DNA from: a virus
Virus record (IMG/VR): IMGVR_UViG_3300042568_000281
Location: 1-25,897 of that record
Length of the DNA: 25,897 nucleotides
Strand: one strand, 5' to 3'
Position numbers and translations under genes: made by a program. Positions 3,494 to 18,911 of this stretch are shown in pieces (positions within the stretch are counted from its first letter, which is position 1; every line of letters begins with the position of its first letter). The notes beneath the pieces were generated by a model. The model worked only from the letters and a program-made list of their open reading frames with translations, made no database searches and had not been told where the DNA came from.

Positions 3494-3882
3494 TAGATCA
3501 CCCCCCAGCCGGTGTTGTTCGATACCATGGTGATGCTCTGGTACTGGACCGGCAGGAGCTGCGTCGCGGCGCCGTCGATGAATTCGCCGCCGGCGGCGGC
3601 CACGGTAATGACGCCGGTGCCGCTGTTCTTCACGGTGAAGATCTGGCCCCGAATGCCCGTCGCCGTGGGCAGCGTCACGGTGAACGTATTGGCCGTGCAG
3701 TCGACGACGCAGTCGTTCGCCGTGACCGTGTAGGTGCCGCTGACCGGGGTGTACTTGACCTTCAAGGCCCCGCCGAGGGCGGGCTGGATCAGCGTCAGGA
3801 AGTCGCCCATCAGGCGCTGGATGCCGTTGATGGCGACGACGCCGTTCTTCTGGCAGGTCAACAAATCATCAAGCGAAGCCAT
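3493..3882 (-). CDS. Small phage structural protein
   Basis: A 129-residue protein beginning MASLDDLLTCQKNGVVAIN, an N-terminus I recall from virion proteins of related podophages. The remainder is beta-rich: VSGTYTVTANDCVVDCTANT, TVTLPTATGIRGQIFTVKN and GEFIDGAATQLL resemble a tail-fibre or tailspike repeat module. I chose ATG 3882 because AAGGAGG ends six bases upstream; a TTG two codons earlier would leave no spacer. The gene is coupled to the next gene by TAATG. A homing endonuclease gene lies between it and the nozzle gene on the other strand. Confidence 0.85.
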   Translation of the reverse strand: MASLDDLLTCQKNGVVAINGIQRLMGDFLTLIQPALGGALKVKYTPVSGTYTVTANDCVVDCTANTFTVTLPTATGIRGQIFTVKNSGTGVITVAAAGGEFIDGAATQLLPVQYQSITMVSNNTGWGVI

Positions 3883-3915
3883 TCCCAACCTCCTTGCGGC
3901 AACTCAGAAAATTGG

Positions 3916-3933
3916 GTATGCCATACATATGTA
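3916..3933. repeat. Two adjacent palindromes at the homing endonuclease start
   Basis: GTATG-C-CATAC (3916-3926) is followed by and overlaps TACATATGTA (3924-3933), a perfect 10-base palindrome that contains the ATG start of the HNH-AP2 gene. They could be an operator, part of a translation-control hairpin or an insertion-site signature. Which one is not decidable here. Confidence 0.6.
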
Positions 3934-4420
3934 CAGAAAAATCTCTATCGCCAGACTGCATGCCCTGCTTCGGTATGACGCCGCGACAGGCGCTCTGTAT
4001 TGGCACCGCACCTCGCAATGGGTGAAAGCAGGGAGGCGCGCAGGGACGCTGTCGCTGGGTTATCGGGTCATAAGTATCGACGGGTGTGTTTTGCGCGCAC
4101 ACCGCATCGTGTGGGCCATGGCGCATGGCCGTTGGCCTCGTAAGGGCCTTGATCATATCAACGGCCGCCGCGACGACAACCGCATAGAGAATTTGCGTGA
4201 AGCTACGCAGAGTGAAAACATGGCCAATGTGCCGCGCGCGAGAAACAACAAGTCGGGAGCCAAGGGCGTGTCGTGGCATGCAGCGGGCCAGAAATGGCAG
4301 GCGCACATACAAAAGAACCGAAAGCACCGATATCTCGGCCTTTTTGACACCGTAGAAGAGGCGGCCGCTGCGTATCAAGAGGCCGCGCAACGACTGCATG
4401 GGGTCTTCGCGAAGCACTAG
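3929..4420 (+). CDS. HNH homing endonuclease with AP2 domain
   Basis: A 163-residue protein and the only convincing plus-strand gene. Residues ~5-92 form an HNH_3-type module: AHRIVWAMAHGRWP followed by LDHINGRRDDNRIENLREAT, with the catalytic and metal-binding His and Asn residues intact (H58, D75-H76, N78, N84, N88). Residues ~110-160 (GVSWHAAGQKWQAHI, RYLGLFDTVEEAAAAY) are an AP2-type DNA-binding domain. This architecture is a known free-standing homing endonuclease class. I chose ATG 3929 because the frame upstream is the shadow of the neighbouring gene. No strong Shine-Dalgarno sequence is visible, and any promoter (TTGCGG, 17 bases, TATGCC) is poor. Its stop overlaps the convergent nozzle gene stop in CTAG. 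It is likely a selfish insertion. Confidence 0.93.
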   Translation: MYRKISIARLHALLRYDAATGALYWHRTSQWVKAGRRAGTLSLGYRVISIDGCVLRAHRIVWAMAHGRWPRKGLDHINGRRDDNRIENLREATQSENMANVPRARNNKSGAKGVSWHAAGQKWQAHIQKNRKHRYLGLFDTVEEAAAAYQEAAQRLHGVFAKH

Positions 4421-7466: not shown

Positions 7467-7997
7467 CTACCCGCGGGCGAGTTTTTCAAGCGTATTGGTC
7501 TTCTGCGCAGAGCCGGCGGAGCTGCCGACCCAGTATCCTACCACTGCCGTGAATGAAGTACCAAGGCTGCCCAACATGATGTTGGCGAGCGTCTGGGAAC
7601 TCTCGGGGATTTCTTGGCGGATCACGACGTACAGCATCGCGAAGAAACCGAACGTGATCAGTATGCTGATGATCGGCGCGCCCCACGCGATAACCGAGCC
7701 AGCCTCGGCGAGCTTTACCGTCTGGTTGCGGGCGTTCTGCACGTCCGCGAGCTGCGCCTGCAGGGTGTCGAATTCCTGCCGGCGAGCGTCGGCCTCAGCC
7801 TGAATCATCGCCATCTTGAACTGCAGGGCAAGGTTGGGATCGGCGGCGATGGCCCTCTCGATGCCGGCAGCGTCGGAGGTTCCCAAAAGGTCTTGGGCGA
7901 TGCCCGTGATCTTGGATACGGCGGCGCCAGTCTTGTCGCCCATGATCCAGCTGGCGACGGTCGGCGCGAGGCCGAGCAGGAGAGGGAGGAAAGGCAT
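7467..7997 (-). CDS. Holin, GTA-type three-TM family
   Basis: A 176-residue protein with a hydrophobic N-terminus (residues 3-19), a charged helical middle rich in Gln and Ala (50-98) and two strong membrane segments (about 102-126 and 137-158). This organisation matches the GTA_holin_3TM family found in gene transfer agents and phages of Alphaproteobacteria. The protein would form lesions in the inner membrane that release the endolysin. It overlaps the endolysin stop as TAATG and has no clear Shine-Dalgarno sequence of its own, so translation is probably coupled to the endolysin. No Rz/Rz1 spanin pair was seen nearby. Confidence 0.88.
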   Translation of the reverse strand: MPFLPLLLGLAPTVASWIMGDKTGAAVSKITGIAQDLLGTSDAAGIERAIAADPNLALQFKMAMIQAEADARRQEFDTLQAQLADVQNARNQTVKLAEAGSVIAWGAPIISILITFGFFAMLYVVIRQEIPESSQTLANIMLGSLGTSFTAVVGYWVGSSAGSAQKTNTLEKLARG

Positions 7998-8560
7998 TAG
8001 GAGGGTGCCCCCTGTGCGTAGCGGAGATCGCTCAAGAACCCGTGGTGGTAGCCGGCGATCAGGTCGGCTTTGTCAGTCCCGTTGATGATGCGCCGCGCGC
8101 CAATCGGGTCATCCACCGTGTCGTTGAAGTAGTTCTTGAGGCTCTTGCCGGTGAAGTCTCCCGCCATCATACCTTCGAACATGATCGCGGCGGCGATACG
8201 CGGGTCCATGGCGAGGTCAAGATTGGCCAAGAGATCGACGCCCAGCAGGCGGCCCATCTTCTTGTAGTTATCTTCCCACGTGAGCTGGACGTAGCCGCGG
8301 CCGTACCACGGGTAGTAGCGCAGGTTCCGCCGGCGCCACTCCTCCGATAGCCAGTAGGCTTCGCGAACCGGCTGCATCGTCATGTTCGTCTCGTGGTAGG
8401 TCGTGGCGAGCATGTAGGCCAGCCAGCGGAGGTCCGTCAGCTTGCGCGCCTCCCACTCGTCGAGGATGGCGTCGATGCCGTTCACCTGATCCTGCGTAAG
8501 CGTGCCGCCGAACAGGTCCGGGCGGATGCCGTCGAAGAAGGCCTTCCGGTTCGTGCTCAT
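7997..8560 (-). CDS. Endolysin, glycoside hydrolase family 19-like
   Basis: A 187-residue protein. FFDGIRPDLFGGTLTQDQV at the start, then RWLAYMLATTYHETNMTMQP with the catalytic-type Glu at residue 57 and a second Glu at 67, then YGRGYVQLTWEDNYKKMG, LDLAMDPRIAAAIMFEGM and GARRIINGTDKADLIAGY are the diagnostic blocks of GH19/chitinase-like phage endolysins that cleave the peptidoglycan glycan strand. No signal peptide is visible, so export depends on the holin next door. GAGGAT lies just upstream of ATG 8560. It precedes the holin in a compact lysis cassette placed between tail genes and connector genes. Confidence 0.95.
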   Translation of the reverse strand: MSTNRKAFFDGIRPDLFGGTLTQDQVNGIDAILDEWEARKLTDLRWLAYMLATTYHETNMTMQPVREAYWLSEEWRRRNLRYYPWYGRGYVQLTWEDNYKKMGRLLGVDLLANLDLAMDPRIAAAIMFEGMMAGDFTGKSLKNYFNDTVDDPIGARRIINGTDKADLIAGYHHGFLSDLRYAQGAPS

Positions 8561-8612
8561 GAGATCCTCAGAGGGAGCTGTACAGGCGGGGACTTGTTTA
8601 TGCGCAGGCTAT

Positions 8613-8792
8613 CTATCGCGCGCCAACACTCACCGCGGCGTGCTGTGTTCCGGATTCCCGGTGCAGCCTGCTGATGTGCGCGATCATCTCCGCCTCCGTG
8701 CCGGTGAATACATGGCCGGCGCTATCGTCGACATGCCCGTCGATAATCGGGCGGACCCACCAAAGGGGTTGGCCGTTTTTGCGGTTACTCAT
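8613..8792 (-). CDS. WWVRP micro-protein, copy B
   Basis: A 59-residue protein beginning MSNRKNGQPLWWVRPIIDGH. Its first 18 residues are nearly the same as those of the adjacent 47-residue protein at 8828-8971, so the two are tandem paralogues. After the shared block it continues with an amphipathic helix (EAEMIAHISRLHRESG). I chose ATG 8792, with GAGGGAC upstream, because the longer in-frame start would overlap the neighbour. No membrane segment is evident. It lies between the fibre gene and the endolysin. I do not recognise the family; roles in virion completion or lysis control are both possible from position alone. Confidence 0.75.
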   Translation of the reverse strand: MSNRKNGQPLWWVRPIIDGHVDDSAGHVFTGTEAEMIAHISRLHRESGTQHAAVSVGAR

Positions 8793-8827
8793 AACGTCCC
8801 TCACGAAAGACAGGGTTGGCGTGGTGA

Positions 8828-8971
8828 TCACGGCGCGCGAGCCAGTTCGGCCAGCCACCCGACCAGCCGCGCGCTGAGTGTATGCGAGCCGGTCCCGTCG
8901 TCAGTATAGCCGAATCCGTCGACAATCGGACGGACCCACCACAGGGGCTTGCCGTCGCTGCGGGCGCTCAC
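8828..8971 (-). CDS. WWVRP micro-protein, copy A
   Basis: A 47-residue protein starting at GTG 8971 in a GTGA overlap with the stop of the GLUG-repeat fibre gene, a classic translational coupling arrangement. It begins MSARSDGKPLWWVRPIVDGF, closely matching copy B (8613-8792). The tails differ: this copy ends with a helix-like LSARLVGWLAELARAP. The shared block and the coupling argue that it is real although it is very short. Function unknown. Confidence 0.7.
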   Translation of the reverse strand: MSARSDGKPLWWVRPIVDGFGYTDDGTGSHTLSARLVGWLAELARAP

Positions 8972-11082
8972 GACCGGGACACCACGAAAGACGCCGTGGC
9001 GCAACCGTTCGTCACGTCGCCTGTGAAAAACCGCTGCGTAGTTGAGACGGAATCGGTCCGGTAGGCAGAGGCGCTGATCAGGGTAGCATCCGAAAACAAA
9101 TATCCGGCGTCGTCGCCGCCCGTAATCATCGGATTAGCGAAGGTGCCGCCGTCTGAAACGCCACGACCAACATATACGCACGGCGCGACGCCGCCGTTCT
9201 TTACCTGCGCGGCGATGCCGGTGCCGGCACCGTTCGTCTGGTTGTTTGCGCCGGTAATTGTCCACGTCGTTCCAGCGGTTCCCCGGAAAACATAGATTTC
9301 CTTCATGGTGCCGCGCGTGCCCGCTGCCATGCCGGTCAGCGTCGTCTCTGTGCCATCCAGAACCTTGTAGGAAACGATCTGGCGCGTGCCGTGAGTATTT
9401 GTGTTGACGCTGTTCTGTGAAACCGTCCAGCCCGCAGGAGACGCGGTTGCGGGGCCTGATGTCGTAGTGTTCTGCGCCAGATCGTACAGCACCGCGAAAT
9501 CGCCCGACTGTATGCCCGCCGGCATTGAGACGGTGGCGCTGCCTTGCGTCGCGGCGTTGCCGATGAACAGAATTTGCGGATAGGTCGGGATGGTCGGCGC
9601 GGGCGGGGCCGGGCTGACCGTGTTCAGGTAGGGCAACCCTCCCGTGGTGCCGCCCGTGATCGACCACTTGCTGTCGAAGCCAGTTGGCAGCCCGGCCTGA
9701 AGTTGGGCCTCAGTTTTGGCCTCCACGCCCGTTACCGTCGCTGTTCTACCGACGCTCTCGATGCAATATGCGCTGTTCGTGATCGTGCCGTTGTTTAGCC
9801 CAATGACGGCATTCGTGCCAGAGCTTCCCGAAGATGTGCCGAACACCAAAGCCTGATCGACCGTGCCGCCAGCCTGATTTTGTCCGACTGCACCCGCGAC
9901 ACGAATACTGCCTGTCGCGGCACCGAACGTCTCCAAGTGGTCGATGACGCCGCTCGACCGATTGAGGCCCACGCCACCGCTCACGTTCTGGACGCCGGTT
10001 GCGTTGCCCAGAGCCCAGTTCTCAGACAGCGTTCCGTAGTTGTCGCCAACAAGACCGCCGACGCGGTCGTCTATACCAACCGCGTTGCCCCGCGCGATGT
10101 TCCGCGCAGCCAAGGAGTTGGTTTCAGACTGACGCCCCAGAAGGCCACCGACATCGGCAGCGCCCGACGCACTTCCGAATGCCTCGTTGTCAAGAACTTG
10201 ACCTTCTAGGTTGATGCCACCTAACGCGCCAGCATAGTTCGCCACGTTGACGCTCGTGGAGCCGACGACATCGATGTAAGTCTCGCAGTTCTGCACGATT
10301 GCCGTGTTGAGCGTGCCCTCGCCTTCGTTCTTGCCGTTGGCCCCAAAGATGACGCCCTGCCAAGCCCCGGTCGTTTCATTGGTTCCAAGGAAGTTCGTGA
10401 CACCGGGGCTCATGTTGCCGCTAGGCGCGAAGCAGCTACCAGAGCGAACGATGACGCCGTCGATCAAACCCCAGTTCTGGCCGCAGCAATTAGCCAGATA
10501 GGTGTTGAAGCCGTCGATGGTCAGCGAGACGTTGGTGTTGCACTCGCCGCCAATGATCTGGCCCGTCACGTTGTTCAAGCCGACAAGGCCGCCGTTGTTG
10601 GAACCGCTGCTTGACGAAATGACCGTCGCAGTCGAACTACAGTTCTCAATTAAACCGTTGTTTATCGCGGCAAGCGATCCGATCTTATTGCCGTTCACGA
10701 ACATCGGGCCGAGATACCCCACCAGACTGACGTTGGTGAGCGCGAAATAACCCCTGATTGTGAGGTCCCTTACAACGCCGGCTGAACCGATATTAGCGAA
10801 CAGGCCATCGTTGGCGCTGGGCGACGAGTTGAGAACCGTGATATTGGAGATCGTGTATCCGCCGCCGTCGAATGTGCCGGTGTAGACAGACGAGATGATG
10901 CCGCCGCCGGCTGTAAATACGCCGTCGCGCACGGCGTTGTAGTTCCCCCGCATCGTAACATCGGCCGAGGGATTGGCGTTCAGGACCGTCCCGAGCTGGC
11001 GCAGGCTCGTGACTACGCCGACACCAGAGACGAGCCAGCCGGGGCCGGCTTTAAAGAGGAGGCGTCTGATGGTCGGCTGCAC
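8968..11082 (-). CDS. GLUG-repeat fibre or adhesin-like protein
   Basis: A 704-residue protein starting at GTG 11082, two bases after the previous stop, so probably coupled. Residues ~60-440 are built of repeats such as GGLVGLNNVTGQIIGG, GGLLGRQSETNSLAARN and VGGLVGDNYGTLSENWALG, the GLUG motif that forms a right-handed beta structure in surface adhesins and phage fibres. A Pro-rich linker near residue 490 (PAPPAPTIPTYP) leads into a separate C-terminal beta domain, QGSATVSMPAGIQSGDFAVL to the end, of a type seen in several tail fibres. It is the best candidate for a host-contacting fibre. The GTGA overlap couples it to the micro-protein gene downstream. Confidence 0.9.
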   Translation of the reverse strand: MQPTIRRLLFKAGPGWLVSGVGVVTSLRQLGTVLNANPSADVTMRGNYNAVRDGVFTAGGGIISSVYTGTFDGGGYTISNITVLNSSPSANDGLFANIGSAGVVRDLTIRGYFALTNVSLVGYLGPMFVNGNKIGSLAAINNGLIENCSSTATVISSSSGSNNGGLVGLNNVTGQIIGGECNTNVSLTIDGFNTYLANCCGQNWGLIDGVIVRSGSCFAPSGNMSPGVTNFLGTNETTGAWQGVIFGANGKNEGEGTLNTAIVQNCETYIDVVGSTSVNVANYAGALGGINLEGQVLDNEAFGSASGAADVGGLLGRQSETNSLAARNIARGNAVGIDDRVGGLVGDNYGTLSENWALGNATGVQNVSGGVGLNRSSGVIDHLETFGAATGSIRVAGAVGQNQAGGTVDQALVFGTSSGSSGTNAVIGLNNGTITNSAYCIESVGRTATVTGVEAKTEAQLQAGLPTGFDSKWSITGGTTGGLPYLNTVSPAPPAPTIPTYPQILFIGNAATQGSATVSMPAGIQSGDFAVLYDLAQNTTTSGPATASPAGWTVSQNSVNTNTHGTRQIVSYKVLDGTETTLTGMAAGTRGTMKEIYVFRGTAGTTWTITGANNQTNGAGTGIAAQVKNGGVAPCVYVGRGVSDGGTFANPMITGGDDAGYLFSDATLISASAYRTDSVSTTQRFFTGDVTNGCATASFVVSRS

Positions 11083-18184: not shown

Positions 18185-18216
18185 CAGGCACCCCCCGTTA
18201 CTTTGAAACAAGCCAT
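18184..18216 (-). CDS. Possible 10-codon leader ORF
   Basis: ATG 18216 opens a 10-codon frame encoding MACFKVTGGA and ends in TGATG, overlapping the start of the beta-helix gene. Its ATG overlaps the endonuclease stop as TAATG, with GAAAGGAAC upstream. It could be a leader that couples translation, or a relic of the gene start before the endonuclease gene arrived. It is too short to be sure. Confidence 0.35.
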   Translation of the reverse strand: MACFKVTGGA

Positions 18217-18911
18217 TAGCTGTTCCTTTCGTCAGAAGTAGAGGAAGAGAGTTCCGTGTGCCGTTCAAGATACCGAATGGCACTCGTCAAGATTTCGGGG
18301 CTGTCTTTCATCTTGCCGATGGCGGTATTGCAGTCGAAACAGAGAAGTCCGCGCACCTTGCCGGTAGCGTGATCGTGGTCGACCGCGAGAGCCTTCACCT
18401 TGCCATTACGCTTGTGCGTTTCCGGCTGCTTGCAGATGGCGCAAGCACCATCCTGAGCGGCGAGCATCAGCTCGTAGTCTTCCAGCGAAAGCCCGAAAGA
18501 AGCCCGCAACGAGCGGGCCTTCTCCAGACGCGGCGACGCACGGCGATAGGCACGGTGATACGCAAGCTTGCCTTCACGTGTCGTATGGTCGAATTCGCCG
18601 CCGATGCCGTTGAAGAGCGTCAAGTTCTCGTAACGGCAATCCGAAGGATCGCCGTTCTTGAACCGGACGCGCCTCTCGGGCCACCTGCCAGTCACGTAGA
18701 ACCAAGCCAGACGACTATCGGTGATGTCGATGTTGTCTAGACGAATGCAGCGGTAACCGCGTGCGTCGTTGCGGCCACCGGCGCGGGCGCCGGGTTTTAC
18801 ATTCTTGGCGGGCCTGATCTTCCACGTGAACACGCCCGACGCTGGATTGTAGTCCAGCGCGTTGCGTATCTGTTCGTGGGAGAGGTTTGGCACTTTCGCT
18901 TTACCCTTCAT
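18216..18911 (-). CDS. Endonuclease VII-type nuclease fused to a degenerate HNH module
   Basis: A 231-residue protein. The C-terminal part (about 150-220) has C157-x2-C160, HDHATGKVRGLLC with H179, D180, H181 and C191-x2-C194, followed by N195, the zinc and active-site layout of recombination endonuclease VII (T4 gp49 type). Residues ~12-100 resemble the HNH_3 module of the plus-strand endonuclease (DYNPASGVFTW, RLAWFYVTGRWP, NGDPSDCRYENL), but the catalytic DHxN block reads RFKN and the preceding His is Ser. This half is probably a DNA-binding relic. The gene sits between the capsid and beta-helix genes and looks like an inserted homing-type gene. GGAGGAG lies only three bases before ATG 18911, at the foot of a hairpin. 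Confidence 0.93.
   Translation of the reverse strand: MKGKAKVPNLSHEQIRNALDYNPASGVFTWKIRPAKNVKPGARAGGRNDARGYRCIRLDNIDITDSRLAWFYVTGRWPERRVRFKNGDPSDCRYENLTLFNGIGGEFDHTTREGKLAYHRAYRRASPRLEKARSLRASFGLSLEDYELMLAAQDGACAICKQPETHKRNGKVKALAVDHDHATGKVRGLLCFDCNTAIGKMKDSPEILTSAIRYLERHTELSSSTSDERNS

Follow-up and report, generated by a model that had tools for sequence, protein, structure and literature searches.

Short conserved boundary sequences constitute one proposed route to mosaicism in phage genomes and are unidentifiable at most boundaries (PMC3029335). A second report describes high recombinant yields of the lambda Red system between genes diverged by 22% (PMC2327257). Such mosaic boundaries, together with the tail fibre assembly chaperones and the small proteins of host takeover, are the described systems closest to the locus considered here.

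The locus lies in a 25,897-base virus record, hereafter the window. A preliminary description had singled out two adjacent small ORFs with a near-identical start, termed tandem WWVRP micro-proteins and assigned to no named family. With a probability of about 0.8, the ORF nearer the endolysin, ORF-B, is a real small gene, and its neighbor, ORF-A, is a recombination product in which the beginning of a WWVRP gene has been joined, in frame, to the end of a second small gene, U. We favor reading the pair as a genuine small gene flanked by the scar of a recombination event, which corrects the tempting interpretation of the two as tandem paralogues. The analysis also defines a family of small proteins under purifying selection that resides in the fibre cassettes of uncultured phages, and provides a base-level example, with a readable scar, of fibre/lysis cassette exchange between distinct phages.

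Organization of the locus

Table 1. Positions of the two small ORFs, their parts and their flanking genes in the window.
Feature	Position	Strand	Description
ORF-B	8613-8792	minus	59 aa, MSNRKNGQPLWWVRPIIDGHVDDSAGHVFTGTEAEMIAHISRLHRESGTQHAAVSVGAR; full-length WWVRP small protein by sequence (P0002)
ORF-A	8828-8971	minus	47 aa, VSARSDGKPLWWVRPIVDGFGYTDDGTGSHTLSARLVGWLAELARAP; GTG start; probable in-frame chimera (P0001)
ORF-A 5′ part	8925-8971	minus	matches WWVRP-gene start (blastn)
ORF-A 3′ part	8828-8924	minus	matches 3′ half of gene U (blastn)
Likely recombination joint	8916-8925	minus	within GTnGACGG of both parental gene types; read from alignment edges
GAGGG, candidate Shine-Dalgarno-like site	8798-8802	minus	5 bases 5′ of ORF-B ATG; read by eye
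Fibre-like ORF	8968-11082	minus	704 aa; upstream of ORF-A; label from position and similarity
Endolysin, GH19-type	7997-8560	minus	downstream of ORF-B; PF00182 E 3.2e-7; phrog_181 endolysin E 7.2e-36

The two small ORFs sit between a fibre-like ORF and an endolysin gene (Table 1), where the preliminary description had placed them, and the GTGA coupling to the fibre gene that it reported is present, the GTG of ORF-A overlapping the TGA of the fibre-like ORF. Their common start (KPLWWVRPIVDG / QPLWWVRPIIDG in ORF-A/ORF-B) extends over 48 bp at 83% identity (E 2e-8) before the two diverge. A degenerate motif of 26 bases has two occurrences in the record, against none for its reversed control; the shared start is thus not due to chance.

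The label of the fibre-like ORF derives from its position and its similarity to fibre-like ORFs in related loci, amounting to ~34-37% identity over the larger matching part with those that precede U-WWVRP pairs (L005, L010, L011, and L013); searches of PHROGs and Pfam and tblastn against the phage collection gave no match. By eye, no Shine-Dalgarno-like site was seen before ORF-A. A scan of positions 7900-9400 limited to one promoter type found no sigma-70-like sites, and terminator-like matches in the same interval numbered three where 1.1 would be expected: the fibre-like ORF contains one, at 9118-9105 of the minus strand, and the other two are on the plus strand.

The capsid protein of the window shares 88.8% identity with that of an uncultured Manatee Spring phage and ~39-41% with those of Pelagibacter and Roseobacter phages, which makes an alphaproteobacterial host possible. 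Elsewhere in the window, a plus-strand ORF at 3734-4420, opposite in strand to its neighbors and probably starting later than 3734, resembles a homing endonuclease (HNH_3, E 3.9e-17; AP2, E 1.7e-8). A minus-strand ORF at 18216-18911, in the structural region, matches Endonuclease_7 (E 4.4e-26) and HNH_3 (E 2.8e-9). A third, at 1769-2326 on the minus strand, is a possible GNAT acetyltransferase (E 6.1e-5, under the Pfam cut-off); in MW202675.1, a "putative acetyltransferase" adjoins an internal virion protein.

The WWVRP family

The preliminary description had suggested looking for the WWVRP motif in other phages, and homologues of ORF-B do exist. Scans of IMG/VR recovered full-length relatives in a further 16 contigs, so that the family, counting the window, comprises seven distinct proteins (49-59 aa) across 17 records. 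ORF-B is a full member of this unnamed family of small proteins. A profile search of the 17 records yielded one full or nearly full WWVRP match in each, the 49-aa type running into its stop; ORF-B itself covers columns 1-57 of 58. A second, partial match, found in three of the 17 records (the window, L003, and L004), corresponds to ORF-A and spans columns 2-26 of 58 in all three. ORF-A is therefore not a full member of the family, and the portrayal of the pair as two equivalent micro-proteins is not supported.

The absence of a named family noted earlier is upheld: neither ORF-A nor ORF-B has a match in PHROGs, Pfam, or NCBIfam, and the family as a whole lacks a significant match in the three collections. 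In Pfam, no family reached E<=1 for ORF-A, ORF-B, or the members from L026 and L022. PHROGs returned for the seven members weak matches to families of unknown function only, the best being phrog_6595 (89 aa, unknown function), which matched two of the seven at a nonsignificant best E of 0.024 and covered residues 31-55 in the member shown. Translated searches of the phage collection (tblastn) gave one noise match each (ORF-B, E 4; ORF-A, E 8), the best sequence match in the PDB had an E of 0.16, and a literature search for the string WWVRP found no paper in the library searched.

Several candidate matches were set aside. A PADLOC match of one of the seven members to a type I specificity subunit (E 0.031) was ignored as weak. 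The sole locus found among the genome contigs, L056 from a Reyranellaceae metagenome-assembled genome (a weak profile score, E 0.0105), was taken as a chance match rather than a cellular homologue because the same DNA, read in a different frame, gives a long protein that by our reading is alpha/beta-hydrolase-like. L014, a 15-residue match devoid of the WWVRP motif, enters none of the counts. Among 385 sampled genomes from the class of G017 there were no matches, a result of little weight given the lack of a positive control.

The family evolves as protein. Across three pairs chosen as independent, 32 synonymous changes over 104 sites compare with 28 nonsynonymous changes over 367 (Fisher test on rounded counts, p 1e-8; pN/pS 0.25), and the dN/dS values of single pairs range from 0.10 to 0.56. 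The per-site synonymous rate, approximately four times the nonsynonymous one, indicates that the WWVRP protein is constrained, unlike the outcome that had been named as refuting the proposal, namely, no homologues and codon statistics like those of noncoding DNA. Gene U also shows selection in two pairs (p 0.0025). An RNA element is unsupported: folding of four stretches gave z-scores of 0.84, 1.13, 1.37, and -0.22, and Rfam has no match within the window.

The AlphaFold2 model of ORF-B, built from seven sequences (pLDDT 85.3), places strands at residues 8-17, 27-30, and 50-55 and a helix at 33-47, which corresponds to a predicted beta-beta-alpha-beta fold. U folded alone (pLDDT 76.9) is modeled as two helices, a hairpin, and a helix. 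Foldseek returned no matches to the ORF-B model at E<=0.001 (best E 0.43 in the PDB and 0.12 in BFVD). VIA-align, for which a Z under 8 may reflect just a common arrangement according to the tool, ranked a PaaB subunit first (Z 5.4), followed by T7 Gp2 (5.3), Dmd (5.1), and AcrIC9 and AcrIF9 (both 4.5).

Possible roles of ORF-B

Tentatively, ORF-B may be a small, soluble protein with an accessory role, probably expressed alongside the late genes and exchanged irrespective of the fibre and lysis types that flank it; it would be directed at the host or the infection rather than serve as an obligatory fibre chaperone. The accessory role is favored, on thin evidence, because WWVRP accompanies several fibre-like ORFs and is absent after one related fibre end. 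The latter, in L070, has 73% identity to the L022 fibre end across 240 aa and no WWVRP gene after it; a scan for that fibre end gave four contigs, three of the L022 type and that of L070. The case against a chaperone is thin, since L070 is a single instance.

A fibre-assembly chaperone or fibre-tip partner, which we consider doubtful, would suit the position of the gene: in the loci read, a fibre-like gene precedes WWVRP, either immediately or with U or ORF-A in between; in L022, WWVRP overlaps the fibre-like ORF as ATGA; and the related genome MW202675.1 supplies a positional counterpart, the gene after its tail fibre encoding a PF16778 tail assembly chaperone. However, no chaperone family was matched in Pfam (four sequences), NCBIfam, or PHROGs (seven members), and WWVRP occurs with differing fibre-like ORFs (the L005 type, L022, and the L026 type), of which those of L022 and the L026 type share ~20% over 182 aa; nor is the L070 fibre end followed by the gene. 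Of the roles suggested in the preliminary description, fibre association stands as a matter of position, an obligatory fibre role being somewhat weakened by L070, a lysis-related role has its position next to the endolysin in its favor and nothing further, and host takeover is possible.

The special case of the accessory role in which ORF-B would, like T7 Gp2, T4 Dmd, and the anti-CRISPR mini-proteins, inhibit a host protein is doubtful to the same degree. Its size, its predicted fold, and the presence of these very proteins among the VIA-align rows are in keeping with such a role, but the list is headed by the PaaB subunit, the Z scores fall in the range of common arrangements, and the best Foldseek E values are weak. 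Furthermore, a late-gene position is unusual for an early host-takeover gene, which counts against the inhibitor.

Two-part make-up of ORF-A

Alignment by blastn divides ORF-A into two parts. Window positions 8970-8925 match the WWVRP start of L026 at 91.3% (E 1e-12), and positions 8924-8628 match L017, from the same record as L005, at 90.2% over 297 bp, from the tail of U through into ORF-B. The two alignments abut at 8925/8924, and the first match reaches 8916 in L022, which puts the joint in about 8916-8925, where both gene types, as read from the parental sequences, carry GTnGACGG in a match of ~8 bases. At the protein level, ORF-A matches the WWVRP profile (E 1.2e-9) as well as that of U (E 5.5e-16), its last 31 residues aligning with the last 31 of U. 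The 97 bases of its 3′ part are identical to L021 at 87 positions, to L025 at 88, to L028 at 75, and to L030 at 70.

Both parental gene types persist intact in related phages. The 66-67-aa gene U stands ahead of WWVRP in L005, L009, L010, L011, and L013, its start overlapping the stop of the fibre-like ORF as ATGA in L005, L010, L011, and L013; a single WWVRP gene, with no U, is found in L022, L023, L024, L026, and L027. No parent was found that combines the window's own fibre with an intact WWVRP; a scan for that fibre gave only two contigs, both of the same population. The ORF-A junction motif occurs in two IMG/VR contigs besides the window and in no other, in a scan that may omit records very near the window; these two are ~99.96% identical to it over 11,520 and 9,753 bp, and the three records that carry ORF-A are therefore counted as one population.

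We infer the following order of events. A phage with the arrangement fibre-WWVRP would have recombined with one carrying fibre-U-WWVRP, the crossover falling at the short GTnGACGG match, so that ~16-19 codons from the beginning of a WWVRP gene other than ORF-B would have been fused in frame to the last ~28-31 codons of U. The outcome would be a shortened WWVRP head attached to the tail of U, with an intact WWVRP gene behind it, and ORF-A would be mostly a by-product.

It is unlikely, though of interest as a new phage gene arising by in-frame recombination within a fibre cassette, that ORF-A is instead a newly born functional gene, its hybrid fold offering a new binding face with the intact WWVRP kept alongside. 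Under that proposal, the first beta strand of WWVRP (residues 8-17 in the ORF-B model) would be joined to the predicted hairpin-plus-helix tail of U, giving a mini-protein with a possible beta-beta-alpha fold. Relative to its two nearest gene types, ORF-A shows eight synonymous changes over 35 sites and five nonsynonymous changes over 100 (p 0.005). The fusion itself could have been selected, given that ORF-A keeps its frame and leans synonymous, but these differences may predate the fusion.

Exchange between fibre and lysis blocks

In the related loci compared, the WWVRP gene often coincides with the edge of an exchanged block. Eight loci were compared in 28 pairs, which are not independent, L028 and L030 carrying the same WWVRP protein. 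An in-register block covers the WWVRP gene in all 28. The left homology edge lies within six bases of the WWVRP start in 18 pairs, the right edge between -40 and +15 bases of its stop in 23, and both edges fall at the gene in 15. That homology stops near the WWVRP stop in 23 of the 28 marks the gene as an edge of fibre/lysis exchange. Three pairs continue downstream (window-L026, L021-L025, and L028-L030), and in L027-L028 and L027-L030 the first ~50 bases of WWVRP align and no more. Blocks confined to the gene show roughly 69-84% identity.

One block, of 3,019 columns at 90% between L021 (3141-6159) and L028 (3180-6159), is read as a transferred fibre cassette. It takes in U, WWVRP, and the greater part of the fibre-like ORF and terminates where WWVRP ends; blastn found nothing else in common between the ~12-kb stretches compared. 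L022 and L028 have in common 4.4 kb downstream (94.6%) and WWVRP (84%); the fibre is not shared. A 5.0-kb stretch extending to the end of WWVRP is common to L026 and L027 (89.8%), unlike the adjoining lysis genes.

From the endolysin side, a scan gave 97 stretches and 84 relatives, of which the best 80 were kept, yielding 79 loci, some with upstream DNA ending early; counting these, seven of the 79 carry WWVRP. Among 21 endolysin loci whose slot was read, several that lack WWVRP contain small hydrophobic ORFs, and the slot of L069 holds an 85-aa protein of phrog_14370 (E 1.8e-8). As with a moron, the presence and exchange of WWVRP are independent of its neighbors (seven of 79 loci; both edges in 15 of 28 pairs).

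The history of ORF-B bears similar traces. Homology between the window and L026 starts at the ORF-B start and runs for 4,206 alignment columns at 89.5%. ORF-B itself is nearest the L005 type, with its first 60 bases identical, whereas the closing residues (SVGAR) and the spacer before the endolysin are similar to L026; a recombination switch near its 3′ end is likely. A mosaic reading of the 3′ end of the gene proper is nonetheless weak because, in three consecutive segments, ORF-B is nearer L021 (60/60, 49/60, and 35/42 bases) than L026 (43/60, 41/60, and 31/42) throughout.

It is quite improbable that the region matters as a DNA linker for fibre/lysis exchange, with the protein incidental. 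That homology ends at the gene in the majority of pairs would fit a linker, as would the boundary-sequence proposal (PMC3029335) and the lambda Red yields (PMC2327257). Against it stand the fourfold excess of synonymous change, the unremarkable folding z-scores, and the lack of an Rfam match; moreover, a gene held in common within a variable slot could by itself produce exchange at its edges. Very improbable is a simple tandem duplication with later divergence of the second half, which the adjacency of the ORFs and their common 48-bp start would suggest, and which is rejected because the tail of ORF-A matches U (E 5.5e-16; of 97 bases, 87 identical to L021 and 88 to L025), the profile of U being dissimilar to that of WWVRP (probability 0.1%, both profiles shallow); by the same comparison, U and WWVRP are unsupported as paralogues.

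Comparison with known systems

The small host-takeover proteins T7 Gp2, T4 Dmd, AcrIC9, and AcrIF9 resemble the ORF-B model in size and in general beta/alpha topology (Z 4.5-5.3); they differ in showing 4-19% identity in those rows and Z scores in the common range. The tail fibre assembly chaperones (PF16778 Phage_tail_APC; PHROGs "tail fiber assembly") occupy the same slot after the fibre gene, in MW202675.1 as well, whereas WWVRP bears no sequence match to them, accompanies differing fibre-like ORFs, and is absent after one related fibre end. The parallel with phage mosaic boundaries lies in fibre and lysis blocks that switch at the edges of a short common sequence, with a hybrid ORF left at one joint. 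Here, in contrast, the common sequence is itself a selected protein-coding gene, and the match at the ORF-A joint spans just ~8 bases.
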